The notes beneath the pieces were generated by a model, which saw only the letters and a program-made list of their open reading frames with translations, was not told the DNA's origin and searched no databases. This document shows, in pieces, positions 6,796 to 63,209 of a stretch of 64,000 nucleotides of DNA. The first letter of the stretch is position 1; each line of letters begins with the position of its first letter. The stretch spans positions 1-64,000 of IMG/VR virus record IMGVR_UViG_3300007735_000803; one strand, 5' to 3'. The DNA is from a virus. Both the position numbers and the translations under genes were made by a program.

Positions 6796-6804
6796 ATATT
6801 TATA
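6796..6804 (+). promoter_or_regulatory. ATATTTATA late-type element
   Basis: ATATTTATA, 15 nt before the start at 6820; first clear copy in the window. Confidence 0.45.
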
Positions 6805-6819
6805 TAAAAAGATAAATAT

Positions 6820-7170
6820 ATGCCAGCACAGTCAGCAGCACAACAACGTTTTTTCGGTATTGTACGTGGAATTCAGAAGGGAGATGTTCCCAAATCGTAC
6901 TCTCCAGAAGCGGCAAAAGTCGCTAAGGAAATGACCCCGAAATCAGTAAAGAAATTAGCACAGACTAAGCACAAAGAACTCCCAGAAAAGGTGCGTGAAA
7001 TGATTCGCAATGAGGTTCGTGCGATAATGGCTGAAATGCGCGGTGAATTAGATGAAGTCGACACCATAGCAGCTAAGAAGAAAGCCGATAAAGAAGAACT
7101 GGACGCCTTAAAGGCCAAAAATGCTTATATAAAGGCCAGGATTGCTAAACTGAATAAGACTAGAATGTAA
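6820..7170 (+). CDS. DUF3008-like phage protein
   Basis: Encodes 116 aa. The N-terminus MPAQSAAQQRFFGIVRGIQKG...AKEMTPKSVKKLAQTKHKELPEKV matches the DUF3008-type pattern (PAxSxxQQRFFG ... TKHKxLPEKV) common in T4-like phages. It is followed by a basic coiled-coil tail. The molecular role is unknown; homologues are often reported near structural genes. It is spaced 1 nt from the next gene. Confidence 0.7.
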   Translation: MPAQSAAQQRFFGIVRGIQKGDVPKSYSPEAAKVAKEMTPKSVKKLAQTKHKELPEKVREMIRNEVRAIMAEMRGELDEVDTIAAKKKADKEELDALKAKNAYIKARIAKLNKTRM

Positions 7171-7171
7171 T

Positions 7172-8928: not shown

Positions 8929-8937
8929 ATATTTATC
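8929..8937 (+). promoter_or_regulatory. ATATTTAT late-type element
   Basis: ATATTTATC, 13 nt before the histone H1-like gene. Confidence 0.35.
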
Positions 8938-10263: not shown

Positions 10264-11874
<1,611 letters not shown>

Positions 11875-13628: not shown

Positions 13629-13637
13629 ATATTTATT
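13629..13637 (+). promoter_or_regulatory. ATATTTATT late-type element
   Basis: ATATTTATT four nt before the ATG at 13642 (ATATTTATTAGTAATG), tight-spacing class. Confidence 0.45.
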
Positions 13638-13641
13638 AGTA

Positions 13642-14094
13642 ATGCAAGACTTTGATAATATGGAAAACGAGTCTTTAGAATCTCCTATTAATATTGAGGA
13701 AGAGGTATATGAAACCTACCTCGGAATACGGTCCAAAAAAGATAAAATATCATTTGTATATGATGTTTTAAATTTAGGAATGGAGGATGCATTGGATGTG
13801 TATTATGCTAATGAATTTAACCAAGAGGATGTTGATGCCGGAACTCCATTACTCTCGACAACATTTGTTGATATAGAGTATGGAGCGGCTCACACCGTAT
13901 TGTTTAAAAATAACATTTTACATATCTCCTCCGATAGACGTAAAATAATTAACCTGTGTGTGAAGTTTTTGGTTGAACAGGGACATATATTGCTTAAGTA
14001 CAATGGCACAAAATACCGTTATAAATTTAACGGATTACGTTATAATAAGACGTTTGAATTAGTAGGATTAGGTCCATTTATTTCTTATAATTAA
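13642..14094 (+). CDS. Hypothetical protein
   Basis: Encodes 150 aa: an acidic N-terminus (MQDFDNMENESLESPINIEEE) then an alpha/beta domain ending FNGLRYNKTFELVGLGPF. No motif recognised. It is preceded by a late-type element and followed after 11 nt by the lysin gene, so it could be part of a lysis transcript. Confidence 0.6.
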   Translation: MQDFDNMENESLESPINIEEEVYETYLGIRSKKDKISFVYDVLNLGMEDALDVYYANEFNQEDVDAGTPLLSTTFVDIEYGAAHTVLFKNNILHISSDRRKIINLCVKFLVEQGHILLKYNGTKYRYKFNGLRYNKTFELVGLGPFISYN

Positions 14095-14712: not shown

Positions 14713-14721
14713 ATATTTATA
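14713..14721 (+). promoter_or_regulatory. ATATTTATA late-type element
   Basis: ATATTTATA, 13 nt before the start at 14735; an AAAGGAG run lies between and could be a Shine-Dalgarno site. Confidence 0.45.
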
Positions 14722-19478: not shown

Positions 19479-19816
19479 TATTTGTATCAGTAATATTATT
19501 TATCGGATTCACCGCATCACTGTTCGTGATTCGAAATTTACTTCTTAAACTTGAGGTTGAAGAGGAAAATAATTCGGTTTATAAGGAATCATTATACCGT
19601 TACGACTTATTCGTTGTTAAATTGCGTAGAAAAGTTATAGAAAGCTATAACCGCATTACAGAATTGGATCGTATAGGTGCTTTTGAATCTGACGATGAGA
19701 CAGGTATTGTTTTCGAAAACTTGAAATCGATGATTACTGATTTAAATGGAGACTTTGAATGGCTAAACCAAGAACCGGAAAATACTACTTCACAGAAGAA
19801 ACAGAGCAAGCAATAA
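19475..19816 (+). CDS. Membrane-anchored phage protein
   Basis: Encodes 113 aa. One N-terminal TM helix (MIFVSVILFIGFTASLFVI) is followed by a cytoplasmic coiled-coil-like segment and an acidic domain (IGAFESDDETGIVFENLKSMI). This arrangement, directly upstream of the gp55-like gene, recurs in T4-type phages of other hosts, but the role is unknown. Its 3' end overlaps the sigma gene by 58 nt. Confidence 0.65.
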   Translation: MIFVSVILFIGFTASLFVIRNLLLKLEVEEENNSVYKESLYRYDLFVVKLRRKVIESYNRITELDRIGAFESDDETGIVFENLKSMITDLNGDFEWLNQEPENTTSQKKQSKQ

Positions 19817-20466
19817 TACGGTATAATGCTAGTACTGACTTAATAGAAAGGAACCGTATTTATGATGCACATATTCGACCGGCTTTCGATAAGTTGGTAG
19901 AGAATATGATACATACCTTTAAATTTTATCACTTCGATGTTCCCTATGAAGATGTAAAACATGAAGTGATTGCTTTCCTCAATGAGAAGATGTCGAAGTT
20001 TACAGCAGGCAAGGGAAAGGCATTTTCTTATTTTTCTATAGTAGCGAAGAATTATCTCATCGTTCATAACAATAATAACTTTAAGAAGTCCAAAAATAAG
20101 GAGGAGTTAGAGATTATTGATGAACGCCGTAATTTAACTAATGAAGTACACCGTGCAGATTTCAAAGATACGTTGCACGATTTTGTTGAACAATTCATTG
20201 CACACTATGATACGAATCTAAATCGTATATTCTCTACACCCGCAGACATACAGGTTGCGGACAGTGTGATTGAAATCTTTAAGATTCGAGAAAATATAGA
20301 ATTGTTTAATAAGAAAGCACTCTACATTCTTATCCGTGAACGTTGCGGATACAAGACCAACCACATTACAAAGATAGTGAACTTTATGCGTGATGACTTT
20401 AAACGGAAGTACACTGAGTATATAGCTACTGGTAGGTTTATATCAGAATTCGACCGTACTCTATAA
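19759..20466 (+). CDS. gp55-like late sigma factor
   Basis: Encodes 235 aa. The start MAKPRTGKYYFTEETEQAIIRYN, the helical IYDAHIRPAFDKLVENMIHTFKF block and GKAFSYFSIVAKNYLI (sigma region 2-like) match the gp55 family of T4-type phages, which redirects host RNA polymerase to late promoters. The C-terminal helices (EIFKIRENIELFNKKALYILIRERCG) would form the remaining sigma contacts. No gp33-like co-activator was recognised. The 58-nt overlap with the upstream gene is accepted because homologous starts begin MxKPRxGKxYF. Confidence 0.75.
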   Translation: MAKPRTGKYYFTEETEQAIIRYNASTDLIERNRIYDAHIRPAFDKLVENMIHTFKFYHFDVPYEDVKHEVIAFLNEKMSKFTAGKGKAFSYFSIVAKNYLIVHNNNNFKKSKNKEELEIIDERRNLTNEVHRADFKDTLHDFVEQFIAHYDTNLNRIFSTPADIQVADSVIEIFKIRENIELFNKKALYILIRERCGYKTNHITKIVNFMRDDFKRKYTEYIATGRFISEFDRTL

Positions 20467-20474
20467 TTATAGAT

Positions 20475-20843
20475 ATGATACCACAGGTTGAATTGTTTTC
20501 TGGTACAACGTTAACATCATTGATGGAAGACATCTACAAGAATTCAAAAAAGAAAGATAAACAAATCAATGATTTAATCAAAACTATTTCTCCCTTAATT
20601 TCCAATGCGGCAGATGCTGCATTACTAGTACCCATCATTAAAGAATTTCTGGATGTAAGCGTAAAGAACGATGAACAATTAATTAAATTGGCTACTATTG
20701 TTCAACGTCTATTATCTATGCAAACAAATATTTCTAATTCCAATAGTGGTGGGGAATTTGGATTTTCTGAGGAAGAAAAACAAGCCCTTATACGTGAAGC
20801 CCAGAACGCCTTAAAAGAAATTAAGGAAGGGACGGTTAGCTAA
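20475..20843 (+). CDS. Hypothetical helical protein
   Basis: Encodes 122 aa, helical, with a Ser/Asn/Gly linker (NISNSNSGGEFGF) before a C-terminal helix (EEEKQALIREAQNALKEIKEG). It lies between the sigma factor and the baseplate spike gene, and its stop overlaps the next start by one base. No family recognised. Confidence 0.6.
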   Translation: MIPQVELFSGTTLTSLMEDIYKNSKKKDKQINDLIKTISPLISNAADAALLVPIIKEFLDVSVKNDEQLIKLATIVQRLLSMQTNISNSNSGGEFGFSEEEKQALIREAQNALKEIKEGTVS

Positions 20844-21841: not shown

Positions 21842-21850
21842 ATATTTATA
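21842..21850 (+). promoter_or_regulatory. ATATTTATA late-type element
   Basis: ATATTTATA, 18 nt before the start at 21869, immediately after the spike gene. Confidence 0.4.
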
Positions 21851-24692: not shown

Positions 24693-24705
24693 ATAATTAT
24701 AGTAA

Positions 24706-25818
24706 ATGATCTATTCTGTATACCCAAATATAGATGCAACTATATACGAGTATTTTCCTAACCGAAATACCGGTATCGATCCCATACTTGAAATAACGAA
24801 GTATACTGCAAACAGTAAAGCTCCGAACGGAGATATTTTCACTTCTAATTACAACTCTAGGGTATTGATAAAATTTCCGTTAGCTGATATATCCTCTTCA
24901 ATTGTAGCGGGTACAATTACTAATCCTAGATTTTATTTGAAATTATCGGCAATCGATTCTACTGATTTGCCTATTGATTATACATTATACGCCTATCCAG
25001 TAAGTCAGTCATGGCAGAATGGTAATGGTAATTTTAATGATTCGCCGGAGATTAGAAACGGCGTAAGTTGGAATTACAAGACTAGTTATGACTTAGCAGA
25101 CCGTTGGGCAACGGGTTCATATAACGCAAATACAACCGCAAGTTGGTATACTAATCCCGGCGGCACAACTTGGTATTTTGGGTCCGGTTATGAAGCATCA
25201 CAATCATTTTCATATGAATCACCTGATGTTCGGATGGATGTTACTGATATTGTCAACAAATGGTTAAGTGGTACAGTAACAAATAATGGCTTTATTGTTA
25301 AGCGTTCAACGGCAGATGAGAGTTCTTCAGACATTTTTGGACAGTTGAAGTTTTTCGGAAGAGATACTCATACAATATACGTTCCTAGATTAGAAGCAGT
25401 ATGGAGTGATAGTGATTTAAGTGGAACGGGTTCATTCTCGCAGATTGCTGATGATCGTTATGTAGTCTATCTAAAGAATATTCGTGATTCATATAAAGAA
25501 GCTAGTAAAATTAGGTTTAGGGTTGGTGTCCGTCCAGAATTTCCTGTATTGACTTATGCCACATCATCAAATTATTTGACACAGTATAGATTACCGTTAT
25601 CTGCATCGTATGCAGTCAAGGATGCAGCGACGGAAGAGTATCTAATAGATTTTGATGATAACTATACTAAATTAAGTTGTGATACGAACGGCAATTATTT
25701 TGATTTATGGTTGAATGAATTCCTTCCGGAACGATTCTATAAAATATTGATCAAAGCAGTTCATACCGACCAAACAGTTATTCATGATAATGGATTTTAC
25801 TTTAAAGTAACTAGATAA
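24706..25818 (+). CDS. DNRLRE-like tail/baseplate protein
   Basis: Encodes 370 aa. The pattern NSRVLIKFPLADI..., YPVSQSWQNGNGNFND...GVSWNYKTS and VRMDVTDIVNKWLSG...NGFIVKRS matches DNRLRE-type beta-sandwich modules. These usually act as structural or carbohydrate-contact domains. The C-terminal third is a separate beta domain (KIRFRVGVRPEFP...FYKILIKAVHTD). Its start is preceded by AATTATAGTAAATG, a variant of the late-type element. It sits between gp6 and the larger tail proteins. Confidence 0.65.
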   Translation: MIYSVYPNIDATIYEYFPNRNTGIDPILEITKYTANSKAPNGDIFTSNYNSRVLIKFPLADISSSIVAGTITNPRFYLKLSAIDSTDLPIDYTLYAYPVSQSWQNGNGNFNDSPEIRNGVSWNYKTSYDLADRWATGSYNANTTASWYTNPGGTTWYFGSGYEASQSFSYESPDVRMDVTDIVNKWLSGTVTNNGFIVKRSTADESSSDIFGQLKFFGRDTHTIYVPRLEAVWSDSDLSGTGSFSQIADDRYVVYLKNIRDSYKEASKIRFRVGVRPEFPVLTYATSSNYLTQYRLPLSASYAVKDAATEEYLIDFDDNYTKLSCDTNGNYFDLWLNEFLPERFYKILIKAVHTDQTVIHDNGFYFKVTR

Positions 25819-38783: not shown

Positions 38784-38793
38784 TTATAGATAT

Positions 38794-43591: not shown

Positions 43592-43595
43592 GTAT

Positions 43596-43658
43596 ATGCC
43601 TCGAATAGTAGCGATATACCCAGGTGAATTACTACCTCCACCGAGTGAAGAGGTTTAA
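43596..43658 (+). CDS. 20-aa mini-ORF copying the start of the 54935 gene
   Basis: Encodes MPRIVAIYPGELLPPPSEEV. Its first ten codons match MPRIVAIYPG of the nucleotidyltransferase at 54935, and the match continues upstream through ATATTTATAGTATATG. The only two differences in the ten codons are synonymous (CCT/CCC and GCG/GCA). After the Gly codon the sequences diverge and a stop follows. It may be a recombination scar, a gene remnant or a real micropeptide. Confidence 0.5.
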   Translation: MPRIVAIYPGELLPPPSEEV

Positions 43659-43689: not shown

Positions 43690-43698
43690 ATATTTATA
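43690..43698 (+). promoter_or_regulatory. ATATTTATA late-type element
   Basis: ATATTTATA, 9 nt before the start of the neck gene at 43708. Confidence 0.45.
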
Positions 43699-46604: not shown

Positions 46605-46622
46605 TTTTGGTGATTATCCTAC

Positions 46623-46631
46623 ATATTTATA
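46623..46631 (+). promoter_or_regulatory. ATATTTATA late-type element
   Basis: ATATTTATA, 22 nt before the sheath start at 46654. Confidence 0.4.
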
Positions 46632-48541: not shown

Positions 48542-48550
48542 ATATTTATT
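48542..48550 (+). promoter_or_regulatory. ATATTTATT late-type element
   Basis: ATATTTATT, 5 nt before the phoH ATG (ATATTTATTGATGTATG). Confidence 0.45.
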
Positions 48551-48555
48551 GATGT

Positions 48556-49215
48556 ATGGAGAATAAGGAGAAACGGATCCCTAAGGGTCCTGTGAAGCTC
48601 TCAGTTACCTTGAGCGAAGAGCAAAAAGTTGCGAAGGAAATTATATTAAGGCATCCTATCAGCTTCGTATTGGGGAAGGCAGGTAGTGGTAAGACGCTTT
48701 TAGCGTGTGCCATCGCATTGGATCTTTTCTTTAAACGGGAAATCAATAAAATTGTAATTACTAGACCAACTGTTGCTACCGAAGATAACGGATTTTTGCC
48801 AGGTACTGAGAAAGAGAAAATGGAACCATGGCTAGTTCCGATACGAGACAATATGCGTAAGGTATATAATGTGCCTCCAATATTGGAAAAGATGGAAACG
48901 GAACAATCAATCGAGCTGGTTTCACTTACACACTTCCGAGGTCGTACTTTCGAGAATGCTGTTTGTATTATTGATGAGTTTCAGAACTTAACAAAGCAAC
49001 AATTCGCAATGGCAGTATCGAGGTTAGGTAAAGGAAGTATGATGATTTTCTGCGGTGACCTAGAACAGATTGATTTGAAATACGATAATGATTCTGCAAT
49101 TCACGAAATACCGAAATTGCGAAGTAGCGAGTATTGTTCGGAAATCATTCTAAAAGACAATCACAGGCATCCTGCATTGGATGATATATTCAGGCTGTTG
49201 AGCAATAAATATTAA
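48556..49215 (+). CDS. phoH: PhoH-like ATPase
   Basis: Encodes 219 aa. PhoH family P-loop ATPase: Walker A GKAGSGKT (40-47), VITRPTVATEDNGFLPGT, Walker B CIIDEFQN, then the arginine/sensor region FCGDLEQIDLK. PhoH-like genes are very common in phages; an RNA-helicase-like or phosphate-stress role has been suggested but is not settled. It is flanked by structural genes and lies directly after a terminator. Confidence 0.92.
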   Translation: MENKEKRIPKGPVKLSVTLSEEQKVAKEIILRHPISFVLGKAGSGKTLLACAIALDLFFKREINKIVITRPTVATEDNGFLPGTEKEKMEPWLVPIRDNMRKVYNVPPILEKMETEQSIELVSLTHFRGRTFENAVCIIDEFQNLTKQQFAMAVSRLGKGSMMIFCGDLEQIDLKYDNDSAIHEIPKLRSSEYCSEIILKDNHRHPALDDIFRLLSNKY

Positions 49216-49221: not shown

Positions 49222-49230
49222 ATATTTATA
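49222..49230 (+). promoter_or_regulatory. ATATTTATA late-type element
   Basis: ATATTTATAGTAAATG, 4 nt between the element and the ATG at 49235. Confidence 0.5.
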
Positions 49231-49234
49231 GTAA

Positions 49235-49615
49235 ATGGCAGCGGGAAAATACTCTTTTTTAATTGAGCAGGGTGCGACTTTAAGTTTTGAGTTGCAGTAT
49301 AAAGATTCTGCAGGTACTCCAATTGATTTGACTGGATATACTGCGAGGATGCAGATCCGTTCTAGTGTAGATTCTACTACAACAATTGCATCATTGACTT
49401 CAACCTTAACTGCAGATGGGACCGGATTAAACTTGAGTGGTTCTTCTGGAACTAAACCATTATCATCCGGTTCAATTGGAGTATATATTTCTGCCACCAC
49501 TTCATCACTGTTTACATTCAATGAAGGTGTATATGATTTAGAGTTAGTTTCGGGTAGTACAGTAACCAGGTTAATTGAGGGAAAAGTAAAACTCAGCAAA
49601 GAGGTAACTAGATAA
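49235..49615 (+). CDS. Conserved phage structural protein (BppU-like N-terminal fold)
   Basis: Encodes 126 aa. The core FLIEQGATLSFELQYKDSAGTPIDLTGYTARMQIRSSVDSTT...YDLELVSGSTVTRLIEGKVKLSKEVTR is a recurrent small beta-sandwich of T4-type marine phages, similar to the N-terminus of baseplate upper proteins. It is adjacent to the collagen-motif fibre and probably anchors it. Confidence 0.65.
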   Translation: MAAGKYSFLIEQGATLSFELQYKDSAGTPIDLTGYTARMQIRSSVDSTTTIASLTSTLTADGTGLNLSGSSGTKPLSSGSIGVYISATTSSLFTFNEGVYDLELVSGSTVTRLIEGKVKLSKEVTR

Positions 49616-51426: not shown

Positions 51427-54345
51427 ATGGCAAGACGTCAAAATAATGGATATATAGGTAAAAATCGTTGGGATGATACCAACGGAGTGATAGGATTACA
51501 ACAACATAGCCTAATACGTGCATACAATAAAGATGATATATATGCACAGCCGAATAATTTTGTAAGTACACCAGCACCAGTAACACCCAATCTACCAGCT
51601 ACCGGCTCTTCAGGAAACGGTTCAGGATCTCTTGCAACTGCTGCGTTGTCAAATGGTAGTGTAGTATCATTAATTTTATATTCAGGTGGTGGCGGTTATA
51701 CAACGGCGCCTACTTTAAGTTTTTCGGGAGGTGGTGGCACCGGCGCTAACGGGTATGTATCATCTATTACTGCTCAATCGGTCATATCTGTAGAACCACT
51801 CTACTATATTAAGTCAACATATATATCACATCCAGGATTTGGATATCAGACTGTACCTTCCGTGTCTTTTTCTGCCCCCATAACCGCAAACGGCGTTACC
51901 GGCGTTACTGCGATCGGTTCTGCATCAATAGCGGGAGGACAAGTTACCGGAATAACTATTCATAATACGGGTAGTAATTACAGAGGTGGTAGTAACTACC
52001 CCACCATCACATTTACCGGAGGAAATCCGGTAATTACTGCACTAGCTATTCCTATACTTGAATCTGGATATGGATATATTAGCGCGCCTACTATCGCCGT
52101 AACGGGAGGTGGTGGATCCGGATCGATAATATCAGCCTCAATAGCAGCAGGATTAAGTTCAATAACAATAACGAATTCGGGAAGCGGATACACGAGACCT
52201 CCAGATATTACGGTTGATGGATTATATTACGATGCATCGGTTACTGCTTCGTTAGTGGGTACTCAGGTAGGCTCAATAAGTGTTATTAATTCTGGATCTA
52301 CGAGATATTCTACTGCACCGGATGTAACGATAGCAGGATTGCCAGATTTACCACCGGTCAATCCGGGAGATCAAAAGATAGTTGGGTGGTATGCTGTATA
52401 CAATAACAATTCGAATTTTGCCACCATTCAGGTACAAGGAGCATTTACTGTTGATTGGGGCGACGGTACTGTGAGTAATCACGCATCCAACGCAGTGGCA
52501 CAAAGGCAATACACCACTTCATCCTTTAATGCATTATCTAGTTCAGTCACGCCGGAAGGATATAAACCAGTGCTAATTACAGTTACACCTTCTGGATCTG
52601 GAGTAAATCTTACATCAGTAACCTTCAATACCGCAAGGCCGACCCTACCGACCGGTTCATTACCGTTAGTAAACACACTAACTAATGGATGGATTGATAT
52701 TCGCATGGCCGGTTCGAATATTAGTACGTTGAGTGTTTGTGATAGCGCTACCAGCGGATACAATTCATTTATGTTAAAGCGTTTTGAGTTTGTAGGTACG
52801 AACGCAGTTAGTTCTTATGTTAGTAGATTCCGCGGGGCATCTAATTTAATAGAAGTAGTACAGCTACCAACTACTTCCGCAACATCGTTTTCTGGAACGT
52901 TCCAAAACTGTACTAACTTACGACGCGTACCTGCATTAGATTGTACTAATGTTACTAACGTAACGAGTATGTTTAGTGGGTGTAATGACTTAGAAACGGT
53001 AACACTGCTTAATTCTAATAATGTAAGTACCTGGCAGGCTGCATTTGGTAATTGTTTCAATCTGCGCAGTGTACGTGCTCAAATACGACCGGTTGATGGT
53101 AGCACCATGTTTAGTAGTTGTCGGTCTTTAATTGATTTACCGCCTATCGATGTTAGTAGGTGTACTACGTTAGCTTCCGCGTTTGGCTCATGTACCCAGC
53201 TAAAATCGATTCGATTTGTGGGTAACACATCGTTAGTTACTTCGTTTAGTGCTACATTCAGCAATTGTTATTCCCTAGTCGATTTGCCTGAAACGCTGGA
53301 TTTATCATCATGCACAACATTGGGATCTGCGTTTGGTTCATGTTATTCTATAGAAAAACTACCTTTACTCACTAATTCATTTAGGGTTACATCCTTGAGT
53401 AATACGTTTCAGAACTGTTATAGTTTAAGACAGATACCGTTATTTGATACATCTGCAGTTACTGATTGGTCAAATGCGTTTAGTTCTGCCGTTTCGATAA
53501 AATCCTTACCAAAATTTGATACTTCTCGAGGTACGACGTTTACTACGACGTTTTCTACTATGCATTCGTTGCGGACAATACCTGCATTTAATTTTAGCAG
53601 TGCCACATCACTCGCATCAGCATTCATAAATTGTCAATCATTGATACGTGTTCCGGCACTAAGAACACCTAAAGTTACTAACTTTACTTCAATGTTTAGT
53701 GGGTGCAGTTCATTGAAAACATTAGAATTATTTGATACATCCGCGGGGACTAACTTTAGTTCTATGTTCAATACCTGCAGTGGATTACAATCAATTCCAC
53801 CATTTAATACCTCACAGGGAACTAACTTTTCATCGATGTTTAGTGGGTGTTCTTCACTGCAAACAACACCTATGTTAGATTTAGGTAATGCTACGACCGT
53901 AGACCAAATGTTTCTTAATTGTACATCATTGGCGTATGTTCCAAAATTTAATACCGCGAAATGCACGTTGTTTAGTTCTATGTTTAGTGGTTGTTCGTCG
54001 TTGACGTATATACCGGCATTTAATACAGCTGCTGGTACGAATTTTTCTCTTATGTTTAATGGCTGTCGGTCGATATCAGAGATTCCTGCGTTGAATGTAT
54101 CTGCGGGTACTACATTTACAAATATGTTTTTTACGGTATCTTCCCTTAAACGTTCACGTATAACGGGAACTGCAGCTGCGATTTCATACGCTAACCTTTC
54201 ATTAGGTCCAGATCAATTAAATGAAATATATACAAATTTAGCTACCGTTACGGGATCACCTATTATTACAGTGACAGGTAACTGGGGTACTGCCAATGAC
54301 AATCCTGCTATTGCTACGGGCAAAGGATGGAATGTATCGGGATAA
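51427..54345 (+). CDS. BspA/DUF285-type repeat adhesin (tail tip)
   Basis: Encodes 972 aa. The N-terminal domain (about 60-310) holds several repeats of the GxGYTxxPTxxxxGGGGSGA type (SGGGGYTTAPTLSFSGGGG, SGSGYTRPPDITVDG). The C-terminal domain (about 440-930) consists of ~24-residue BspA/DUF285-like leucine-rich repeats: TNFSSMFSGCSSLQTTPML, LFSSMFSGCSSLTYIPAFN and others, about 18 copies with regular Cys. BspA-like repeats mediate attachment in Bacteroidota and other bacteria, so this is a likely receptor-binding protein. Confidence 0.8.
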   Translation: MARRQNNGYIGKNRWDDTNGVIGLQQHSLIRAYNKDDIYAQPNNFVSTPAPVTPNLPATGSSGNGSGSLATAALSNGSVVSLILYSGGGGYTTAPTLSFSGGGGTGANGYVSSITAQSVISVEPLYYIKSTYISHPGFGYQTVPSVSFSAPITANGVTGVTAIGSASIAGGQVTGITIHNTGSNYRGGSNYPTITFTGGNPVITALAIPILESGYGYISAPTIAVTGGGGSGSIISASIAAGLSSITITNSGSGYTRPPDITVDGLYYDASVTASLVGTQVGSISVINSGSTRYSTAPDVTIAGLPDLPPVNPGDQKIVGWYAVYNNNSNFATIQVQGAFTVDWGDGTVSNHASNAVAQRQYTTSSFNALSSSVTPEGYKPVLITVTPSGSGVNLTSVTFNTARPTLPTGSLPLVNTLTNGWIDIRMAGSNISTLSVCDSATSGYNSFMLKRFEFVGTNAVSSYVSRFRGASNLIEVVQLPTTSATSFSGTFQNCTNLRRVPALDCTNVTNVTSMFSGCNDLETVTLLNSNNVSTWQAAFGNCFNLRSVRAQIRPVDGSTMFSSCRSLIDLPPIDVSRCTTLASAFGSCTQLKSIRFVGNTSLVTSFSATFSNCYSLVDLPETLDLSSCTTLGSAFGSCYSIEKLPLLTNSFRVTSLSNTFQNCYSLRQIPLFDTSAVTDWSNAFSSAVSIKSLPKFDTSRGTTFTTTFSTMHSLRTIPAFNFSSATSLASAFINCQSLIRVPALRTPKVTNFTSMFSGCSSLKTLELFDTSAGTNFSSMFNTCSGLQSIPPFNTSQGTNFSSMFSGCSSLQTTPMLDLGNATTVDQMFLNCTSLAYVPKFNTAKCTLFSSMFSGCSSLTYIPAFNTAAGTNFSLMFNGCRSISEIPALNVSAGTTFTNMFFTVSSLKRSRITGTAAAISYANLSLGPDQLNEIYTNLATVTGSPIITVTGNWGTANDNPAIATGKGWNVSG

Positions 54346-54353
54346 TATTTATA
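54345..54353 (+). promoter_or_regulatory. ATATTTATA late-type element
   Basis: ATATTTATAGTATATG, 4 nt to the ATG at 54358; overlaps the TAA stop of the adhesin. Confidence 0.5.
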
Positions 54354-54357
54354 GTAT

Positions 54358-54588
54358 ATGAATACAGCAGGTTTTTATAAATATATAAATGATGAATTGT
54401 TCTGTGGACATAACTTTGTTTACGGAGCATACGATGCTTTTAGATTATTTAGGGAAGAACGTAACACCTATACATATCCAGTAGACGGCTGGTATTGGTT
54501 TGATTCCGAAGAGGAAGCCCGTATATTTTTCAATATCCCATTGCCAGATCCGAATCCTAACAACTACACCGAAACTATAGAAGGTTAA
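54358..54588 (+). CDS. Small hypothetical fibre-cluster protein
   Basis: Encodes 76 aa, aromatic-rich (FYKYINDELFCGHNFVYGAYDAF, YPVDGWYWFDSEEEARIFF). It may be a fibre-tip accessory. Small aromatic proteins of this type often follow the adhesin gene in phages. No family recognised. Confidence 0.6.
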   Translation: MNTAGFYKYINDELFCGHNFVYGAYDAFRLFREERNTYTYPVDGWYWFDSEEEARIFFNIPLPDPNPNNYTETIEG

Positions 54589-54592: not shown

Positions 54593-54922
54593 ATGCCAAA
54601 TACATATAAATTATCAGCAAATAAAATTATTAGTGTAGGAGCGACTACACTATATACGGCACCGATAAGTACTACTACATTACTTAAGAGCTTATATATT
54701 TCAAACGTGACCACTAGTAGTATGGTATATACGGATGTAGTGATAAACAAAAGCGGTTCCCCTACGGACTACTTCTTAATTGAAAGTGCATCTATACCAT
54801 TACAATCAACCTTCCAACCTATCTCAGATACCCTAGTATTACAGACTGGCGATTCTATAAAGATTTCTACTACATTCTCGGCTTCATTCGATACCTTATT
54901 ATCGTATTTAGAAATCACGTAA
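54593..54922 (+). CDS. Conserved structural protein
   Basis: Encodes 109 aa, a beta-sandwich-like protein (NKIISVGATTLYTAPISTTTLLKSLYISNVTTSSMVYTDVVI, LQTGDSIKISTTFSASFDTLLSYLEI). The pattern recurs in structural proteins of T4-type marine phages. It could be a decoration or fibre-associated protein. Confidence 0.65.
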   Translation: MPNTYKLSANKIISVGATTLYTAPISTTTLLKSLYISNVTTSSMVYTDVVINKSGSPTDYFLIESASIPLQSTFQPISDTLVLQTGDSIKISTTFSASFDTLLSYLEIT

Positions 54923-54930
54923 TATTTATA
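54922..54930 (+). promoter_or_regulatory. ATATTTATA late-type element
   Basis: ATATTTATAGTATATG, 4 nt to the ATG at 54935; same as the copy at 43583. Confidence 0.5.
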
Positions 54931-54934
54931 GTAT

Positions 54935-56728
54935 ATGCCCCGAATAGTAGCAATATACCCAGGTCGATTCCAGCCAATGGGTCGACATCATTATAACTCA
55001 TATCTTGATTTAGTCGATCAGTTTGGTAAAAATAACGTATATGTTGTAACTTCCGGTAAAGTTGAACCGGGACGTTCTCCATTAACATTTGCAGAGAAAC
55101 GTAAAGTAGCCGTAGCACACGGTATCCCCTCAAATCGATTTATCCAGGTAAAGAATCCGTATAAAGCAGAAGAATTAACTGCTACATTTCCTGAAGATAC
55201 TTCAGTGGTATTTGCAGTCGGTGATAAGGATATGCGTGAAGATCCTAGATTCCGTACCGGAATGTTGAAATCCGGTAAATCGAGTTATTTTCAACCGTTA
55301 AAGGGAAATGAGAATAATCTTAAAGGTTATCAGGAACATGGGTATCTATATGTACTTCCACACGTTAGTATTGCTATACCAGGATATGGAGAGATGAGTG
55401 GTACTGAGTTGCGTAATGTATTAGCGACTGCTTCTCCTAAGCAATTCAAACAAATAATGGGATGGTATGATTCGGGTATAGCGAATATGTTAGCCGATAA
55501 GTTCTCTGTCCGTGAATCCATAATGGAGGGTGGCGCCGCCGGCCATCTCAATCACCCGTTTGATAAGAACGACTTAACCTTCGGTGATATGAAGGAGATG
55601 ATACGTAGAGCCTTGGCAGGTGAATTGAATATTGAGAAGGATGTAGTTGAAAAGACTGATGGACAGAACCTGCAGATTACATTTAAGGACGGTCAGGTAC
55701 TAGCAGCAAGAAACAAAACACAAATAAAAGATCCAATAAGTGCTGATGATATAAAGATGAAATTTGCAGGACGTGGTTCAATTGAACGTGCTTTTGGATT
55801 TGCAATGGATGATTTAGAATCTGCATTAAATCGTTTGCCGAAAAGGGAATTGGATGAGATATTCCAGAACGGAAAACGGTTCATGAATTTAGAAATCATT
55901 TTTCCTGAAACTAAGAATATTATCAATTATGGTACAGATGCATATTTACAGTTTCACGGATTGGTTGAGTATGATGAAACGGGAAAAGTAGTCGATACCT
56001 ATCCAGAATACGGAAAGAAGTTACAGCGTATGATTGCAAAGGTAAATGCAGACACACAAAAGCAGTTTAAGATAATTCCTCCCAAAGTAGTACAGATAGA
56101 AAAATCCAAATCTTTCGATAAACGTTTACCCTATTACTTAAATAAGATAGACAAGTTACAAAAGGTATATGGATTGACTGATAATGATGAGGTTATTGAG
56201 TGGAGCGATAGATGGTGGGACGATTATATCGATAAAAATTACCCAGATATTTCCCAGGAAAGTAAAGAAGCATTAATTTCCCGTTGGTCACGTGGAGACA
56301 GGTCATTCAGATTAGACAAAAATATTACTTCTGATACAGATGAGTTGAATGATATGAAGCAGGTAGATAAAGAATTTGCAGAAAATCAGATGAAACGTAA
56401 TGTGGGTCAATTTGAAGATATATTTTTAGAGTTGGGTGCTGAGGTATTGAGTAATATATCTGATGTGCTTTCAGCCGTACCTAATGATGCGGTAAAAGAA
56501 ATGCGTAAAGGTATAGCAGATACTATAAAGCAGATACAAGCATCAGGGGATATCGCTATCTTAGATAAATTACGTGACCAATTGAAACGTATCAATAAGT
56601 TAGGTGGTTTAGATAAATTAGTTCCGTTAGAGGGAATAGTATTTACATATAAAGGCGATACATATAAATTGACAGGCGCATTTGCTCCTGCAAATCAAAT
56701 TTTAGGTATGTTAAAGTATATTAGGTAA
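54935..56728 (+). CDS. Nucleotidyltransferase (NMNAT-like) fused to ligase-like domain
   Basis: Encodes 597 aa with two enzymes. Residues 1-185 are a Rossmann nucleotidyltransferase of the NMNAT/cytidylyltransferase class: IYPGRFQPMGRHH (7-19, GxFxPxxxGH-type), VFAVGDKDMR, and MSGTELRN (ISSTxxR-type). After a linker, residues about 205-400 resemble the RNA/DNA ligase nucleotidyltransferase fold: EKTDGQNLQIT with the motif I Lys240 (KxDG), RNKTQIK, NLEIIFPETKN (motif IV-like) and a later FTYKGDTYKLTG. The C-terminus is helical. It may couple NAD synthesis or RNA-end chemistry to ligation; the substrate is unknown. The start is fixed by the ATATTTATAGTATATG leader. Confidence 0.75.
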   Translation: MPRIVAIYPGRFQPMGRHHYNSYLDLVDQFGKNNVYVVTSGKVEPGRSPLTFAEKRKVAVAHGIPSNRFIQVKNPYKAEELTATFPEDTSVVFAVGDKDMREDPRFRTGMLKSGKSSYFQPLKGNENNLKGYQEHGYLYVLPHVSIAIPGYGEMSGTELRNVLATASPKQFKQIMGWYDSGIANMLADKFSVRESIMEGGAAGHLNHPFDKNDLTFGDMKEMIRRALAGELNIEKDVVEKTDGQNLQITFKDGQVLAARNKTQIKDPISADDIKMKFAGRGSIERAFGFAMDDLESALNRLPKRELDEIFQNGKRFMNLEIIFPETKNIINYGTDAYLQFHGLVEYDETGKVVDTYPEYGKKLQRMIAKVNADTQKQFKIIPPKVVQIEKSKSFDKRLPYYLNKIDKLQKVYGLTDNDEVIEWSDRWWDDYIDKNYPDISQESKEALISRWSRGDRSFRLDKNITSDTDELNDMKQVDKEFAENQMKRNVGQFEDIFLELGAEVLSNISDVLSAVPNDAVKEMRKGIADTIKQIQASGDIAILDKLRDQLKRINKLGGLDKLVPLEGIVFTYKGDTYKLTGAFAPANQILGMLKYIR

Positions 56729-56736
56729 TATTTATA
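56728..56736 (+). promoter_or_regulatory. ATATTTATA late-type element
   Basis: ATATTTATA, 15 nt before the start at 56752; overlaps the upstream TAA. Confidence 0.4.
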
Positions 56737-57078: not shown

Positions 57079-57726
57079 ATGACAAGGTTACGTAATACTG
57101 AAGCGTTGCGTCAGATGCTAGATGGCACGCATAGAACTCAAACTAAGAAGAGTTTTTTCATGTCCGATACAAAATCGGAAAACGACCCAAACGTAATTTC
57201 TAGAAAAACGGGAGATGTCTGGACTGAAACAGATCCGGTGACCGGTGAAGAAACGCATTGGAAACAAGAAAAGGGATTCAAGCGTAAAATCGGTGTAATG
57301 GAAGCAATACGGCACGAGAGTCCGGAATTGTTTTCAGATATGCAGATGCCAAGCCACTGTCCACACTGTGATAAAAACATGAGTGGGGTTGCAGACACTA
57401 GGATGTGGTCATTGTATAAGATGTGTATTGACTGTGTTGCTAAGCGTGATACGAAACTCATGTATGAAGGCAAATTCGGCGATTTTCAAATGCAAAAGAT
57501 GCAAGAGAATGTTAAGGCCTGGATACGTGATACTGACCAGGAATTTGAAGACATGATTGCTAACATTAAAAAAGATCCTTCATATGTCAATGCAGACGGT
57601 ACACTTGAAAAGTGGGACTTAGGATCTAATGTAGAGGAACAAGAGGCACAACTCCGTGCTGATTATGCAGACTTCAGGAATCGTATATTACAATATTATG
57701 GCATTCAGGAAAATGAAACTGCCTAA
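57079..57726 (+). CDS. Zinc-ribbon hypothetical protein
   Basis: Encodes 215 aa. The middle has CPHC...CIDC (SHCPHCDKNMSG..., MCIDCVAKRD), a four-Cys zinc site with about 20 residues between pairs. The N-terminal half has GDVWTETDPVTGEETHWKQEKGFKRK, and the C-terminal half is helical and acidic. Similar zinc-ribbon proteins lie near gp17 in other T4-like phages. A DNA or protein binding role is inferred. Confidence 0.65.
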   Translation: MTRLRNTEALRQMLDGTHRTQTKKSFFMSDTKSENDPNVISRKTGDVWTETDPVTGEETHWKQEKGFKRKIGVMEAIRHESPELFSDMQMPSHCPHCDKNMSGVADTRMWSLYKMCIDCVAKRDTKLMYEGKFGDFQMQKMQENVKAWIRDTDQEFEDMIANIKKDPSYVNADGTLEKWDLGSNVEEQEAQLRADYADFRNRILQYYGIQENETA

Positions 57727-57734
57727 TATTTATT
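57726..57734 (+). promoter_or_regulatory. ATATTTATT late-type element
   Basis: ATATTTATTGTATATG, 4 nt to the ATG at 57739; overlaps the upstream TAA. Confidence 0.45.
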
Positions 57735-57738
57735 GTAT

Positions 57739-58122
57739 ATGATTAAGTTAAAATCAATGTTAGGTCTAAAAGTTTTAGAAGCTTTAGATCCAGTAGGAAA
57801 AGAAGACGCAGACATCGACAATGATGGCGATGTTGATGCATCAGACGAATATCTCAAAAACCGTCGCGATGTTGTCAGTAAAAAGGTAGAAGAAGCTACC
57901 GATGAAGACGATTCATTAGACTGGGATCAAGAGGGTGGCTTTGATACTTCATATAACAAATTGAATGATCAATTATTGAAAGTTCAGCGTGGTATGGATA
58001 TGTTATTTAAGAAATTCAAAGCGGGTACTATCAATAAAGAAGAATATGTAGCAGACCGTATGAAATTGCAAAAACATCGCGATAGATTAGAGAAGCAGCT
58101 TCTTGGAAGTATGGAAGATTAA
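57739..58122 (+). CDS. Small EF-hand-type protein
   Basis: Encodes 127 aa from ATG 57739; an in-frame TTG at 57733 is less likely because the late-type element abuts the ATG. Residues about 23-40 contain DADIDNDGDVDASDEYLKNR, an EF-hand-like calcium loop (DxDxDGDxDxxDEYL) also known from small phage proteins in the head region. The rest is a helical hairpin. A structural or scaffold role is plausible. Confidence 0.65.
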   Translation: MIKLKSMLGLKVLEALDPVGKEDADIDNDGDVDASDEYLKNRRDVVSKKVEEATDEDDSLDWDQEGGFDTSYNKLNDQLLKVQRGMDMLFKKFKAGTINKEEYVADRMKLQKHRDRLEKQLLGSMED

Positions 58123-58143: not shown

Positions 58144-60141
58144 ATGGCTGAGAACAAATCGCTAAAACAAATTATTGCTGAAGAATACATGAAGTGTGCC
58201 GTTAATCCGGTATATTTCATGAAAAAGTATTGTATTATCCAACACCCTACCAAAGGAAAGGTATTCTTCCAGTTATATAACTTCCAAGAGAACACACTAC
58301 AAGAATTAGCAGATAATCGTTACAATGTCATTCTGAAATCAAGGCAAATGGGTATCTCTACCCTAGTTGCTGGATATTCACTTTGGTGCATGTTATTCAA
58401 GAATGATTTCAACGTATTAGTAATCGCCACTACACAAGAGGTAGCAAAAAACTTAGTAACTAAAGTGAGAGTAATGCACGAAAACCTACCTACCTGGTTA
58501 CGTGGTATTACTATTGAAGATAACAAATTATCGCTTAAGTTTAAGAACGGCTCACAAATAAAGGCCGTTTCTAGTGCAGGTCATTCGGGTCGTTCTGAAG
58601 CACTCTCACTTCTTATAATCGATGAGGCTGCCTTTATCACAAAGATTGATGAGATATGGGCAGCAGCACAACAAACATTAGCGACGGGTGGTGGTGCAAT
58701 TGTACTGAGTACACCGAACGGTACTGGTAACTTCTTCCATAGGACATGGGTAGATGCCGAATCCGGCGGACAGTTCCATCCAATACGTTTACATTGGTCA
58801 CTGCATCCGGAAAGGGATGAGAGTTGGCGTCAGCTTCAAACTGAATTATTAGGTGAAAGATTGGCGGCACAGGAGTGTGTTTCCGGCAATAGTTTGGTGA
58901 ATATAGTAAATAATATAACTGGTGACGAGGAAGAAATTACTATAAACGAATTATATGAACGACTTGCAGAAGAGAATAAAAATACCAAATATAGTGTTTT
59001 AACTCCAAACGGTTATCAATTTTTTACCGGCATCCGCCGAGTACAGAAATCCGACAGGTTGCGTATTTTACTTGAAGGCGGAATAGACTTAGAATGCTCC
59101 AAAAATCATAGATTTATTATCGAAGGTTCTGAGGTATATGCAGATACTTTACATGTAGGAGATGCAATTGAATCAACGCATGGTAAGTTGTGCATATTGG
59201 AAATTGAAACAATAACGGAACCGATCGACTTATTTGATTTGGTTGATGTTGCTAATGGCAATGTATATTTTACTAACGGGTTATTAAGTCACAACTGCGA
59301 CACCGACTTCATTTCATCCGGACACACCGTAGTTGCAGGTGAATTGATAGAATGGTATCGAGAAACCTATACACAGGAACCTATAGAAAAACGTGGAATG
59401 GGTGGTGAATTGTGGCTATGGGAGTACCCGGATTATACAAAAGATTATATAGTAGCGGCCGACGTTGCCCGCGGTGATGGCGGGGACTATTCAGCATTCC
59501 ATATTATTGAATTAAAGAGTTTACGACAGGTAGCTGAATTTAGAGGAAAGATAGGAACGACTGAATACGGTCACATGTTAGTATCAATGGCTACGGAATA
59601 TAACAATGCAATATTGGCGATTGAAAATGCTAATATTGGTTGGGCAGTTATACAGGTAGCAATAGATAAAGGATACCCAAATCTTTATTACAGCTACCGA
59701 CAGGATGGTTATTTGGATGAGAATATTCATTTGTCTAAAGGATATGATCTTAAAGATAAGAGTGCAATGGTTCCTGGCTTCACTACCTCATCCAAGACCA
59801 GACCACTAATGATTGCGAAATTAGAAACCTATTTCCGTGAAAAGGCACCAATCATACATAGTAAACGGTTAATTGATGAATTGCTAGTATTTATTTGGAT
59901 TGGTAACCGAGCAGAAGCGCAGCATGGCTATAATGATGACTTAATTATGTCATTATGTATTGCATTGTGGATACGTGATACTGCATTAAAATTGAAACAA
60001 CAGGGTTTAGATCTAACATTAAAGGCTGTAACACATATAGGAAAGCATTCCGGTATATATACAGTCAATGATCCAAGTAATTCTCCCTGGACAAGTAAAC
60101 TACCAGATGGTTCTTCTGAATCATTAAAATGGTTATTGTAA
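58144..60141 (+). CDS. terL: Terminase large subunit (gp17-like) with mini-intein
   Basis: Encodes 665 aa; after intein removal 525 aa, the usual TerL size. ATPase motifs: SRQMGIST (66-73, a Walker A variant without the usual Lys), IIDE (158-161) and STPNGTGN. After the intein the RNase H-like nuclease begins with VAADVARGDGGDYSAF (Asp440) and ends GYNDDLIMSLCIALWI. Residues 245-384 are an inserted intein. It packages DNA through the portal. The gene is followed by the portal gene, in the T4 order 17-20 with small genes between missing. Confidence 0.93.
   Translation: MAENKSLKQIIAEEYMKCAVNPVYFMKKYCIIQHPTKGKVFFQLYNFQENTLQELADNRYNVILKSRQMGISTLVAGYSLWCMLFKNDFNVLVIATTQEVAKNLVTKVRVMHENLPTWLRGITIEDNKLSLKFKNGSQIKAVSSAGHSGRSEALSLLIIDEAAFITKIDEIWAAAQQTLATGGGAIVLSTPNGTGNFFHRTWVDAESGGQFHPIRLHWSLHPERDESWRQLQTELLGERLAAQECVSGNSLVNIVNNITGDEEEITINELYERLAEENKNTKYSVLTPNGYQFFTGIRRVQKSDRLRILLEGGIDLECSKNHRFIIEGSEVYADTLHVGDAIESTHGKLCILEIETITEPIDLFDLVDVANGNVYFTNGLLSHNCDTDFISSGHTVVAGELIEWYRETYTQEPIEKRGMGGELWLWEYPDYTKDYIVAADVARGDGGDYSAFHIIELKSLRQVAEFRGKIGTTEYGHMLVSMATEYNNAILAIENANIGWAVIQVAIDKGYPNLYYSYRQDGYLDENIHLSKGYDLKDKSAMVPGFTTSSKTRPLMIAKLETYFREKAPIIHSKRLIDELLVFIWIGNRAEAQHGYNDDLIMSLCIALWIRDTALKLKQQGLDLTLKAVTHIGKHSGIYTVNDPSNSPWTSKLPDGSSESLKWLL
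58876..59295 (+). mobile_element. Mini-intein in terminase large subunit
   Basis: 140 aa, residues 245-384 of the precursor. It begins CVSGNSLVNI (block A, Cys1), has SKNHRFI (block B-type His), and ends VYFTNGLLSHN followed by Cys (+1) in HNCDTDF. No homing endonuclease domain is present, so it can splice but not home by itself. Joining the flanks gives LAAQE-CDTDF, which restores a continuous TerL reading. Confidence 0.9.
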
Positions 60142-60149
60142 TATTTATT
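60141..60149 (+). promoter_or_regulatory. ATATTTATT late-type element
   Basis: ATATTTATT, 12 nt before the portal start; overlaps the terminase TAA. Confidence 0.35.
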
Positions 60150-60161: not shown

Positions 60162-63100
60162 ATGATAGATACATCAATACGTGCTAGGTTAAGGCGTTTA
60201 TTCAGTACTCAAGTTATAGTACGGAAGGTAGGCGCCAATAAGATTAAAGTAACTGATACGAGTAAACTCCAAGCGGGAGGTAACCCATATGGAAGTACAT
60301 ACGTAGATCGTTTTGCTGGTCTGCATACAAATCGTACTATGGGAGTTACTGGTATTGGTAACGCTTACAGTTTCCATGCGGTAAAGACTCAATTGTATAC
60401 TGATTATGAAGCAATGGACTTAGATCCGATCATTTCATCTGCGCTTGATATTTATGCAGATGAATCTACTACATATTCAGAAAACAATATTGTATTAGAG
60501 ATTAAGACTGAGGATGCACGTATTCAAAAGATACTTCATAACTTATTTTATGATGTATTGAATGTCGAGTATAATTTATGGCCGTGGGTTCGTAATATGT
60601 GTAAATACGGAGATTTTTATCTGTATTTAGATATTAATGAAGAATTGGGTGTTGTTAACGTAATGCCCATATCAGCCTATGAATTAGAAAGACAAGAGGG
60701 ATACGATCCTGAAAATCCGTACAGTGTACGTTTCACATTTATCGGTAAAAACTCTGTGTATAGTTCCAATGAAAAGAATACACATTTTGAATATTATGAA
60801 ATAGCACACTTTAGAATGCTATCCGATACGAATTTCTTACCGTACGGAAAATCAATGATCGAAGGTGCTCGTAAATTATTTAAGCAGTTAGTACTGATGG
60901 AAGATGCGATGTTACTGCAACGTATTATGCGTGCGCCGGAACGTCGTATATTTAAGATAGATGTAGGTAATATCCCACCGATTGAGGTAGATTCTCATAT
61001 CCAGAATATTATTACTAAGGTAAAGAAAGTTCCATATATGGATCCGCAAACCGGGGAGTATAATTTGAAATTCAACATGCAAAACATGTTAGAGGATTTC
61101 TATTTACCTGTACGAGGATCGGAAAGTGGTACTTCAATTGAAACGTTGCCTGGATTATCAAGCGACGGTCAGATAGAGGATATAGAATATTTAAGGAACA
61201 AGATGATGGCTGCGCTGAAGATACCCAAAGCATTCTTAGGGTATGATGAGGGCATCCAAGGTAAATGTATCAGTCCGCTAACTATGATTCCGTTGATTGA
61301 CGGGAGAGTATTAACCGTTTCGGATTTAATTGATGAATTTAATGCGGGTAAACAAAATTATGTATATTCATTAGATACAGATACAAATAGTATCGTGCCC
61401 GGCGAAATTGAGTGGGCAGGTTATACTAGGTTAAATACTCAGATAGTACGCGTTAATTTGGATAACGGGAAATATATCGAATGTACGCCAGACCATAAGT
61501 TTTTAACTAGAAACGGTGAATGGATAGAGGCTCAAGATTTGAATACTGGTCAAGCTCTAATGCCGTTGTATTTAGGAAATGGTGGATACAAAAAACACTA
61601 TACTACAGTATATAATCCAAGCACCGAGAAGTATACTTTAGTACATAGATTGGTTGCTGATCACTATAATATTAAAGAAGACGGTAAAGTTATACACCAT
61701 AAAGATTATAATTCTAGGAATAACAATCCAGATAATTTAGATGGATCAATGACATTTTTCGAACATAGAGAATTTCATCAGAAAAATGCACATGAGTGGA
61801 ACAAATCACCTGCTATGGTCCAATATAGAAATTCACCGCAGTTTTTAATTAATTCTAGTAACGGGGGTAAGAAGGGTGGTGCTAAATCTGCCAAGCAGTT
61901 AGGTGAATATGCTAGAACCCACGCACCTGTAAATAAGTTGCCTAGGTATGATTATACTTGTGAGATATGTGGATGTAAACTTGTTGGTAGGTTAGGTGTA
62001 CCTAACAATAAAACATGCGCGGCTGGAGGATGTATTTCTGCTATAGCAAGAAATAGAAAGATAGGAAATACATATAACTGCAAATTTAACAAAGTCCCGT
62101 ATGATATTTTATTGGAGACTGCTAAAGTATCGAATTCGTTTAAAGACTTAGAATCTAAATTAGGAATTACTAGAGCTACGTTAAATCGTGTATTCGAATT
62201 ATATGATATCAACAAAGAAGATTTTGTTTTTGCACACATGCCTCTAGCGTTATCCAATAAAGGATTTATGCAAAATTATAGGCAATACGAGTCACACTAT
62301 GCCAATCATACGGTGCTGAATGTTGAATGGTTGTCTGAGAATATAGATACCTGCGATTTAACGATTAATAGATATCATAATTTTGGTACGGATGCTGGCG
62401 TGATTATACATAATAGTACTCTGGCCGCTGAAGATGTTCGTTTTGCTAGGACCATTGAACGTATCCAACGAATAGTAATTAGTGAGTTATATAAGATTGC
62501 CGTTGTTCACTTATATACACAGGGATTTGAAGATGCCGATTTAGTTAACTTCGAATTGAATTTAACCTCTCCCTCAATCATATATGAGCGTCAGAAGGTC
62601 GAATTAATGAAGGAAAAGATTGATTTGGCAAATACGTTAATTGAAAGTAAGTTATTCAGCCGTAAATTTATCTATGAAAACATTTTTGATATGGATCAAA
62701 ACGGTTGGCAAAATGAACAGGAATTAGTGGTAGAAGATACCAAGCAAGAATTCCGTTTAGAGCAGATAAAGAGTGAAGGAAATGATCCGAAATTGACTAA
62801 ACAGAGCTATGGTACTCCTCATGATATTGCATCAATGCACGTATCAAGTAAGTATGAAGATCCTAGATTACGTGAATATGTTCCCGGGCCCGGACGCCCT
62901 AAAGCTAAAACGAATTTTGAGAGTGATCGCGATGTAGATGGGCCGGATCCGCTCGGAATGAAAGATGTATCAGATACATTTAAAGTTGATACTGGTATGT
63001 CTAAAACTCCTAAAACTAGCAGTGCATTCGGTGAAAATACGAAATATATCGGTTCTATATTACATTCAATGAAACAAAATAAATTAGCAAAATCAACGAG

Positions 63101-63188
63101 CGTTGCTCAAACATTAAACGAACATGTCGAACCTAGTGATACGGGGACACTTTTAGATGAAAGTAGATTGGATTCTTTTAATGTTTAA
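60162..63188 (+). CDS. Portal protein (gp20-like) with HNH intein
   Basis: Encodes 1008 aa; after intein removal 625 aa. N-terminal AVKTQLYTDYEAMDLDPIISSALDIYADESTTYSENN, middle KLFKQLVLMEDAMLLQRIMRAPERRIFKIDVGN and GTSIETLPGLSSDGQIEDIEYLRNKMMAALKIPKAFLGYDEG are diagnostic for T4-type portal proteins. Residues 369-751 are an intein. The portal forms the dodecameric DNA channel at the head vertex. The C-terminal tail is Lys/Asp-rich and disordered. Confidence 0.93.
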   Translation: MIDTSIRARLRRLFSTQVIVRKVGANKIKVTDTSKLQAGGNPYGSTYVDRFAGLHTNRTMGVTGIGNAYSFHAVKTQLYTDYEAMDLDPIISSALDIYADESTTYSENNIVLEIKTEDARIQKILHNLFYDVLNVEYNLWPWVRNMCKYGDFYLYLDINEELGVVNVMPISAYELERQEGYDPENPYSVRFTFIGKNSVYSSNEKNTHFEYYEIAHFRMLSDTNFLPYGKSMIEGARKLFKQLVLMEDAMLLQRIMRAPERRIFKIDVGNIPPIEVDSHIQNIITKVKKVPYMDPQTGEYNLKFNMQNMLEDFYLPVRGSESGTSIETLPGLSSDGQIEDIEYLRNKMMAALKIPKAFLGYDEGIQGKCISPLTMIPLIDGRVLTVSDLIDEFNAGKQNYVYSLDTDTNSIVPGEIEWAGYTRLNTQIVRVNLDNGKYIECTPDHKFLTRNGEWIEAQDLNTGQALMPLYLGNGGYKKHYTTVYNPSTEKYTLVHRLVADHYNIKEDGKVIHHKDYNSRNNNPDNLDGSMTFFEHREFHQKNAHEWNKSPAMVQYRNSPQFLINSSNGGKKGGAKSAKQLGEYARTHAPVNKLPRYDYTCEICGCKLVGRLGVPNNKTCAAGGCISAIARNRKIGNTYNCKFNKVPYDILLETAKVSNSFKDLESKLGITRATLNRVFELYDINKEDFVFAHMPLALSNKGFMQNYRQYESHYANHTVLNVEWLSENIDTCDLTINRYHNFGTDAGVIIHNSTLAAEDVRFARTIERIQRIVISELYKIAVVHLYTQGFEDADLVNFELNLTSPSIIYERQKVELMKEKIDLANTLIESKLFSRKFIYENIFDMDQNGWQNEQELVVEDTKQEFRLEQIKSEGNDPKLTKQSYGTPHDIASMHVSSKYEDPRLREYVPGPGRPKAKTNFESDRDVDGPDPLGMKDVSDTFKVDTGMSKTPKTSSAFGENTKYIGSILHSMKQNKLAKSTSVAQTLNEHVEPSDTGTLLDESRLDSFNV
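61266..62414 (+). mobile_element. Intein with HNH homing endonuclease in portal gene
   Basis: 383 aa, residues 369-751. It starts CISPLTMIPLIDGRVLTV (Cys1), has ECTPDHKFLTRNGEWIEA (block B TPDH), and ends NFGTDAGVIIHN followed by Ser (+1) in STLAAEDVRF. Inside is an HNH nuclease (VIHHKDYNSRNNNPDNLD, with HREFH downstream) and a zinc-finger-like stretch (CEICGC...CAAGGC). Removing it restores GYDEGIQGK-STLAAEDVRFARTI of the portal. Confidence 0.92.
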
Positions 63189-63200
63189 TTTAATATCTAC

Positions 63201-63209
63201 ATATTTATA
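63201..63209 (+). promoter_or_regulatory. ATATTTATA late-type element
   Basis: ATATTTATA, 15 nt before the start at 63225. Confidence 0.4.

Follow-up and report, generated by a model that had tools for sequence, protein, structure and literature searches.

A directional AT-rich box as a likely variant T4-type late promoter, with a predicted leaderless subset, in a clade of large tailed phages

The element ATATTTATA recurs, mainly in a single direction, upstream of genes in a large tailed phage, is conserved among its relatives and stands at two classes of distance from the start codon; from this sequence evidence we consider it likely to be a variant T4-type late promoter of the phage clade, with a leaderless subset. 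A sequence-only reading of the same DNA had proposed a leaderless late promoter, of which the directional, late promoter-like behaviour of the element stands, and leaderlessness would be confined to a subset. The window that we analysed comprises 64,000 nt (bases 1–64000 of a 157,151-base virus record, a 157-kb tailed phage). Genes were called by a simple script, so that short genes and start positions carry error, and all 173 of those called in the 157-kb record lie on the + strand.

Among named phages, it is closest to Flavobacterium phage immuto and to Mel-JY01, a phage reported from Microcystis, and the relatives used for comparison are IMG/VR contigs without hosts; the phage is probably a large virus infecting Bacteroidota bacteria. 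Its virion module includes a bS21 ribosomal protein gene (G000:67534–67683, outside the window), as found in 7/8 records searched (this phage and six of seven relatives), immuto being without it. In bS21-encoding Bacteroidetes phages, structural genes and bS21 were co-expressed in late infection according to metatranscriptome data, in a paper whose text does not mention promoters (PMC9723584). Because the virion module with bS21 is a shared trait, our phage probably belongs to the same wider group. The window also carries a full-length phage GroEL chaperonin gene (10276–11874), with a local GC of 0.46 that is above that of its surroundings.

Enrichment, direction and genes behind the box

Motif discovery over gene upstream regions, which the sequence-only reading had suggested, returned ATATTTAT as the leading 8-mer, present within 45 nt 5' of the start of 30 of the 173 genes (1.1–1.8 expected), with its reverse complement in the same regions of only 2 genes. 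As a positive control, the identical script returned the known late boxes of T4 (TATAAATA) and of a cyanophage (ATAAATAA). Within the window ATATTTAT occurs 22 times on the + strand and 5 times on the − strand, and ATATTTATA has 14 copies (13 on the + strand), whereas shuffled sequence gave 4.8 and did not reach 14 in any of 100 trials; ATATTTATA is its own mirror image, so that the pattern read backwards is uninformative as a control. Over the whole 157-kb record, intergenic DNA contains 31 complete + and 2 − copies of ATATTTAT, versus 2.6 in Markov simulations. The motif is far from equally frequent inside genes, since 36 of 43 + strand copies are centred in intergenic DNA, which makes up <10% of the genome; copies at 5945, 9609, 22733 and 60448 are located within genes. 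Moreover, when five large relatives were analysed one by one, ATATTTAT ranked first among upstream 8-mers every time, and it preceded 292/743 genes in 80 pooled tail-sheath loci (8.9 expected; reverse complement, 1) and 97/1221 genes in 80 pooled sigma loci (7.0 expected; reverse complement, 5). A literature search limited to open papers found no published description of the box.

The instances in the window are collected in Table 1. At least 17 copies had been claimed at 4–22 nt from gene starts, and we counted exactly 17 on the + strand when distance is taken from the 9-mer to the ATG, with the positions of all 17 named boxes confirmed. Seven had been placed at 4–5 nt; we find six there (13629, 43583, 49222, 54345, 54922 and 57726), the one at 48542 lying one nt further, and the ATG after 43583 opens only a 20-codon ORF. 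The overlap with the preceding stop codon could be seen at 54345, 54922, 56728, 57726 and 60141, and the variants that had been described ahead of 20475, 24706 and 38794 are present, the gaps being 4, 5 and 6 nt. The segments 43583–43625 and 54922–54964 form a 43-nt partial duplication, 95% identical, that spans the late box and the opening ten codons of gene 54935; the copy at 43583–43625 is now the 20-codon ORF.

Table 1. Putative late-promoter boxes in the window and the candidate sigma factor gene; leadered and leaderless are predicted classes
Feature	Position	Strand	Comment
Box ATATTTATA, leadered, before gene 6820	6796–6804	+	
Box ATATTTAT, leadered, before gene 8951	8929–8936	+	
Box and ATG at 5 nt, leaderless class, gene 13642	13629–13644	+	
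Box, leadered, before gene 14735	14713–14721	+	
Probable sigma factor (235 aa), candidate for recognising the box	19759–20466	+	Conserved in clade; sigma-like predicted fold
Variant box ATAATTATAG and ATG at 4 nt, leaderless class, gene 20475	20463–20477	+	ATATTTAT at 4-nt gap in several orthologues
Box, leadered, before gene 21869	21842–21850	+	
Variant box ATAATTATAG and ATG at 5 nt, leaderless class, gene 24706	24693–24708	+	
Box, leadered, before gene 30689	30663–30671	+	
Variant box ATAATTATAG and ATG at 6 nt, leaderless class, gene 38794 (1526 aa)	38780–38796	+	
ATATTTATAGTATATG before 20-codon ORF	43583–43598	+	Partial copy of 54922 element and gene start
Box 10 nt before gene 43708	43690–43698	+	Head-completion homologue
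Putative tail-sheath promoter, sheath gene 46654	46606–46631	+	TTTG of GTTTGG-like element 17 nt 5' of box
Box and ATG at 6 nt, gene 48556	48542–48558	+	PhoH homologue
ATATTTATAG and ATG at 5 nt, leaderless class, gene 49235	49222–49237	+	Start codon common to orthologues, whose leaders are longer
ATATTTATAGTATATG, leaderless class, gene 54358	54345–54360	+	Overlaps previous stop codon
ATATTTATAGTATATG, leaderless class, gene 54935 (597 aa)	54922–54937	+	Overlaps previous stop codon
Box, leadered, before gene 56752	56728–56736	+	Overlaps previous stop codon
Box ATATTTATT and ATG at 5 nt, leaderless class, gene 57739	57726–57741	+	Overlaps previous stop codon
Box ATATTTATT, leadered, gene 60162	60141–60149	+	Portal (gp20) homologue; overlaps previous stop codon
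Box, leadered, before gene 63225	63201–63209	+	

In the virion and lysis module, 22 of 75 genes have the box within 45 nt, as against 9 of 98 genes elsewhere (p = 0.001), a bias towards that module. With the immuto annotation as guide, boxes precede homologues of sheath, tube, hub, portal, head-completion and PhoH genes. In immuto itself it is the terminase, portal, sheath, tube, hub and tape-measure genes that have the box upstream, and none was found before DNA polymerase, recA, helicase or nrd genes; in the tail-sheath relatives, too, the genes behind it are mostly virion genes. Motif genes have longer upstream gaps (median 36 versus 11 nt), and the box occurs at just one of the 63 genes having <8 nt upstream. 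No exact box was found within 100 nt of the major capsid gene, which would thus depend on an upstream or variant promoter, and the nine boxes that precede genes outside the virion module imply that timing would not be strictly virion-only.

Promoter anatomy and the two spacing classes

A logo built from 310 distinct instances displays a weak AT-rich stretch 11–16 nt 5' of the box, the box itself and then A/T-rich DNA, with a purine at offset 12 in 97% and A at offset 13. These signals persist, though weaker, when gene families are weighted equally, and no −35 hexamer is seen under that weighting. In tail-sheath promoters (loci L018–L096), TTTG, within GTTTGG, lies exactly 17 nt 5' of the box in 52/70 cases despite a box–ATG distance that ranges from 23 to 78 nt, so the box keeps register with upstream DNA and not with the start codon. 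This GTTTGG-like element is perhaps the site for an activator or for the sigma C-terminal domain; it was rejected as a general −35 element, being concentrated in sheath promoters and gone when families are weighted equally.

The distance from the 8-mer to the ATG falls into two classes, 4–5 nt or at least 13 nt, with 33 instances at 4–5 nt, 18 at 6–12 nt and then ~13–22 per nt from 13 to 36 nt. Counted as gene families, there are 22 at 4–5 nt versus 12 at 6–12 nt (p = 1e-7). The reading frame offers an independent test. An ATG at gap 2, present in 69 promoters because TATATG is common, is in frame with the gene in 28%, which is chance level, as compared with 86% at gaps of 4–5 nt, 45% at 6–9 nt and 84% at 13–18 nt. 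That an ATG is unused at gap 2 and used at gap 4 would place the RNA start at about offset 11–12 from the start of the box, or ~3–4 nt past it, in agreement with the conserved purine. With such a start, genes whose ATG lies 4–5 nt past the box should have a leader of 0–2 nt and be leaderless. The proposal that mRNAs start at or near the AUG would apply only to copies 4–6 nt from the ATG, and most boxes would give leaders of at least 9 nt.

Copies at 4–6 nt account for about one third of this phage's boxes, a share that is far smaller in relatives, although immuto has two clear genes with a 5-nt gap (lectin, 10527; hyp48, 142474); gaps of 4–7 nt were found for 11/31 scored boxes here versus 28/432 elsewhere (p = 9e-6). 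The short class here usually reads ATAWTTATAG-N2-4-ATG, a pattern with 14 boxes on the + strand (ten of them followed by a gene after 4–6 nt and two followed by 20-codon ORFs) and one on the − strand. The G at offset 9, directly 3' of the 9-nt box, marks this class (8/10 versus 1/19), more weakly so in relatives (6/26 of the short class versus 20/393). Start codons of the short-gap genes 49235, 78893 and 20475 are common to orthologues, and several relatives of the 20475 gene keep the 4-nt gap with different spacer letters. For gene 54935, similarity to relatives begins at residue 3–4, so that a later start would cut the conserved part.

In having an RNA predicted to begin at the AUG and a −10 element at a fixed short distance, the short class resembles leaderless genes of bacteria and phages, among which lambda cI and P2 gene V are other phage examples; here, instead, it forms a recurring class of a phage-specific late promoter. 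Counted against it is that leaderless mRNAs are a minority in Flavobacterium, amounting to 5.5% in F. psychrophilum (PMC9723704), and in F. johnsoniae 87% of transcripts have leaders >10 nt (PMC6847099).

Relation to T4 and host promoters, and a candidate sigma factor

Like the late promoters of T4 (TATAAATA; gp55, gp33 and the clamp gp45), those proposed here have a single, conserved 8-bp TATA-like box, TATTTATA, in the sense direction at the −10 position, no −35 element, AT-rich DNA downstream and virion genes behind them. Both boxes fit TATWWATA and are identical at 6/8 positions in the same direction, differing in the middle, which is AA in T4 and TT here; unlike in T4, the start would be closer to the ATG in a subset of this phage's promoters. 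The exact TATAAATA consensus is not enriched upstream of genes in the sense direction (3 intergenic copies). The sequence-only reading had left the orientation in doubt, as TATTTATA is the reverse complement of the T4 box. That doubt is resolved by the copies lying in the sense direction of the genes and by the 6/8 agreement, because of which the box need not be read backwards; the reverse-complement relation is incidental.

The candidate reader of the box is a 235-aa protein that, on the strength of structure prediction, is a probable sigma factor. Conserved across the clade, with gp118 as its counterpart in immuto, it is predicted to be all-helical (pLDDT 82), and its best-matching structures, whether from the PDB or from viral models, were mostly sigma factors, the leading ones aligned over the whole length, with values below strong significance (best PDB E = 0.013; best viral E = 7.6e-4). 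The gp55-like sigma factor of the sequence-only reading holds up as regards a sigma-like predicted fold. The match to gp55 was not established: profile comparison with cyanophage gp55 and a search of this genome with the gp55 family profile gave no match, so that homology found no support at the sequence level; for the immuto homologue the value was E = 0.008. Unlike T4 gp55, moreover, the protein has an extra C-terminal domain (residues 127–235; pLDDT 90, pTM 0.80), which had no match among solved structures in the PDB and whose assignment as sigma-4 found no support. A search for a gp45-type clamp (PF02916) found none here and none in the control genomes either.

In our model, ATATTTATA would be the −10-type element of late promoters in the clade, with the sense strand as its reading direction. 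It would be melted by host core RNA polymerase together with a phage sigma factor, for which the 235-aa product is the likeliest candidate. RNA would start ~3–4 nt past the box, at a purine. An ATG at least 13 nt past the 8-mer would yield an mRNA with an ordinary leader, and one 4–6 nt past it an RNA whose 5' end is at the AUG or within ~2 nt, a leaderless late mRNA.

Alternative readings and implications

Recognition of the promoter by a phage sigma factor has to be weighed against recognition by the host primary sigma factor, with the box as a variant of the −7 element TAnnTTTG. When the two are aligned, they share A-11 and TTT at −8 to −6 (PMC6847099), and Bacteroidota primary-sigma promoters (TTTG/TAnnTTTG) accordingly resemble it in where A and TTT lie with respect to the start. 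Unlike them, the box has neither T-12 nor G-5 and is generally without the −33 element. Relative G003 (L185–L192) has host-like TTTG-N16-21-TAHHTTTG promoters before a separate set of eight genes, 0/8 with a late box, which suggests a Bacteroidota host for this relative and fits a division between early/host and late/phage promoters in G003 only; host-like promoters are not enriched in the genome studied here (7 forward, 12 reverse). Host-sigma recognition therefore appears decidedly unlikely. Hardly credible is a T4 late promoter on the opposite strand driving antisense RNA, a reading that takes the reverse complement of TATAAATA, namely TATTTATA, at face value. We rejected it on orientation, given the strong one-directionality relative to genes (292 versus 1 in relatives), the same-direction agreement of the two boxes, and an ATG spacing and downstream purine that belong to the sense direction.

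An element just 5' of ATGs, in Bacteroidota, which make no use of Shine–Dalgarno (SD) sequences, might also act in translation initiation as a substitute for the SD in a host that ignores it. This is very improbable and was rejected: the box–ATG distance varies from 4 to >70 nt, the majority of genes lack the element, it co-occurs with SD-like AGGAG in relatives, and the sheath promoters hold a fixed spacing to the upstream GTTTGG element. Position −3 in the short class, moreover, is usually T and not the A favoured in F. johnsoniae (PMC6847099). It is quite unlikely, too, that the promoter is real and its short class an artefact of start-codon annotation, with true starts downstream. AT-rich boxes do yield ATGs by chance, 69 times at gap 2, and a few ATGs of the short-gap kind plainly begin no gene, among them that at 90647, a box rejected as a gene promoter of the short class since its ATG at 5 nt opens a frame that closes after 20 codons. 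Against this stand the difference between 86% in frame at gaps of 4–5 nt and 28% at gap 2, the start codons shared by orthologues, and the 4-nt gap retained across differing spacers in relatives of the 20475 gene.

Our preferred reading remains a T4-type late promoter of variant form, a subset of whose copies would give leaderless mRNAs. A review of T4 asks why a fused late sigma factor has never been found (PMC2988020). As a speculative and, in our estimate, unlikely extension, one two-domain sigma factor may have replaced the split late sigma of T4 (gp55 and gp33), and the ATAWTTATAG-N2-4-ATG module may make truly leaderless late mRNAs, translated without an SD by late-infection ribosomes that may carry the phage bS21. 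The proposed box would provide a late-promoter consensus for a widespread metagenomic phage group in which most genes have no known function, so that sequence by itself would suffice to propose late genes and operons. The predicted leaderless subset would be a natural gene set in which to test translation start by ribosomes that hide their anti-SD, and the phage sigma factor would offer a compact counterpart, possibly one that is not split, to the late system of T4.
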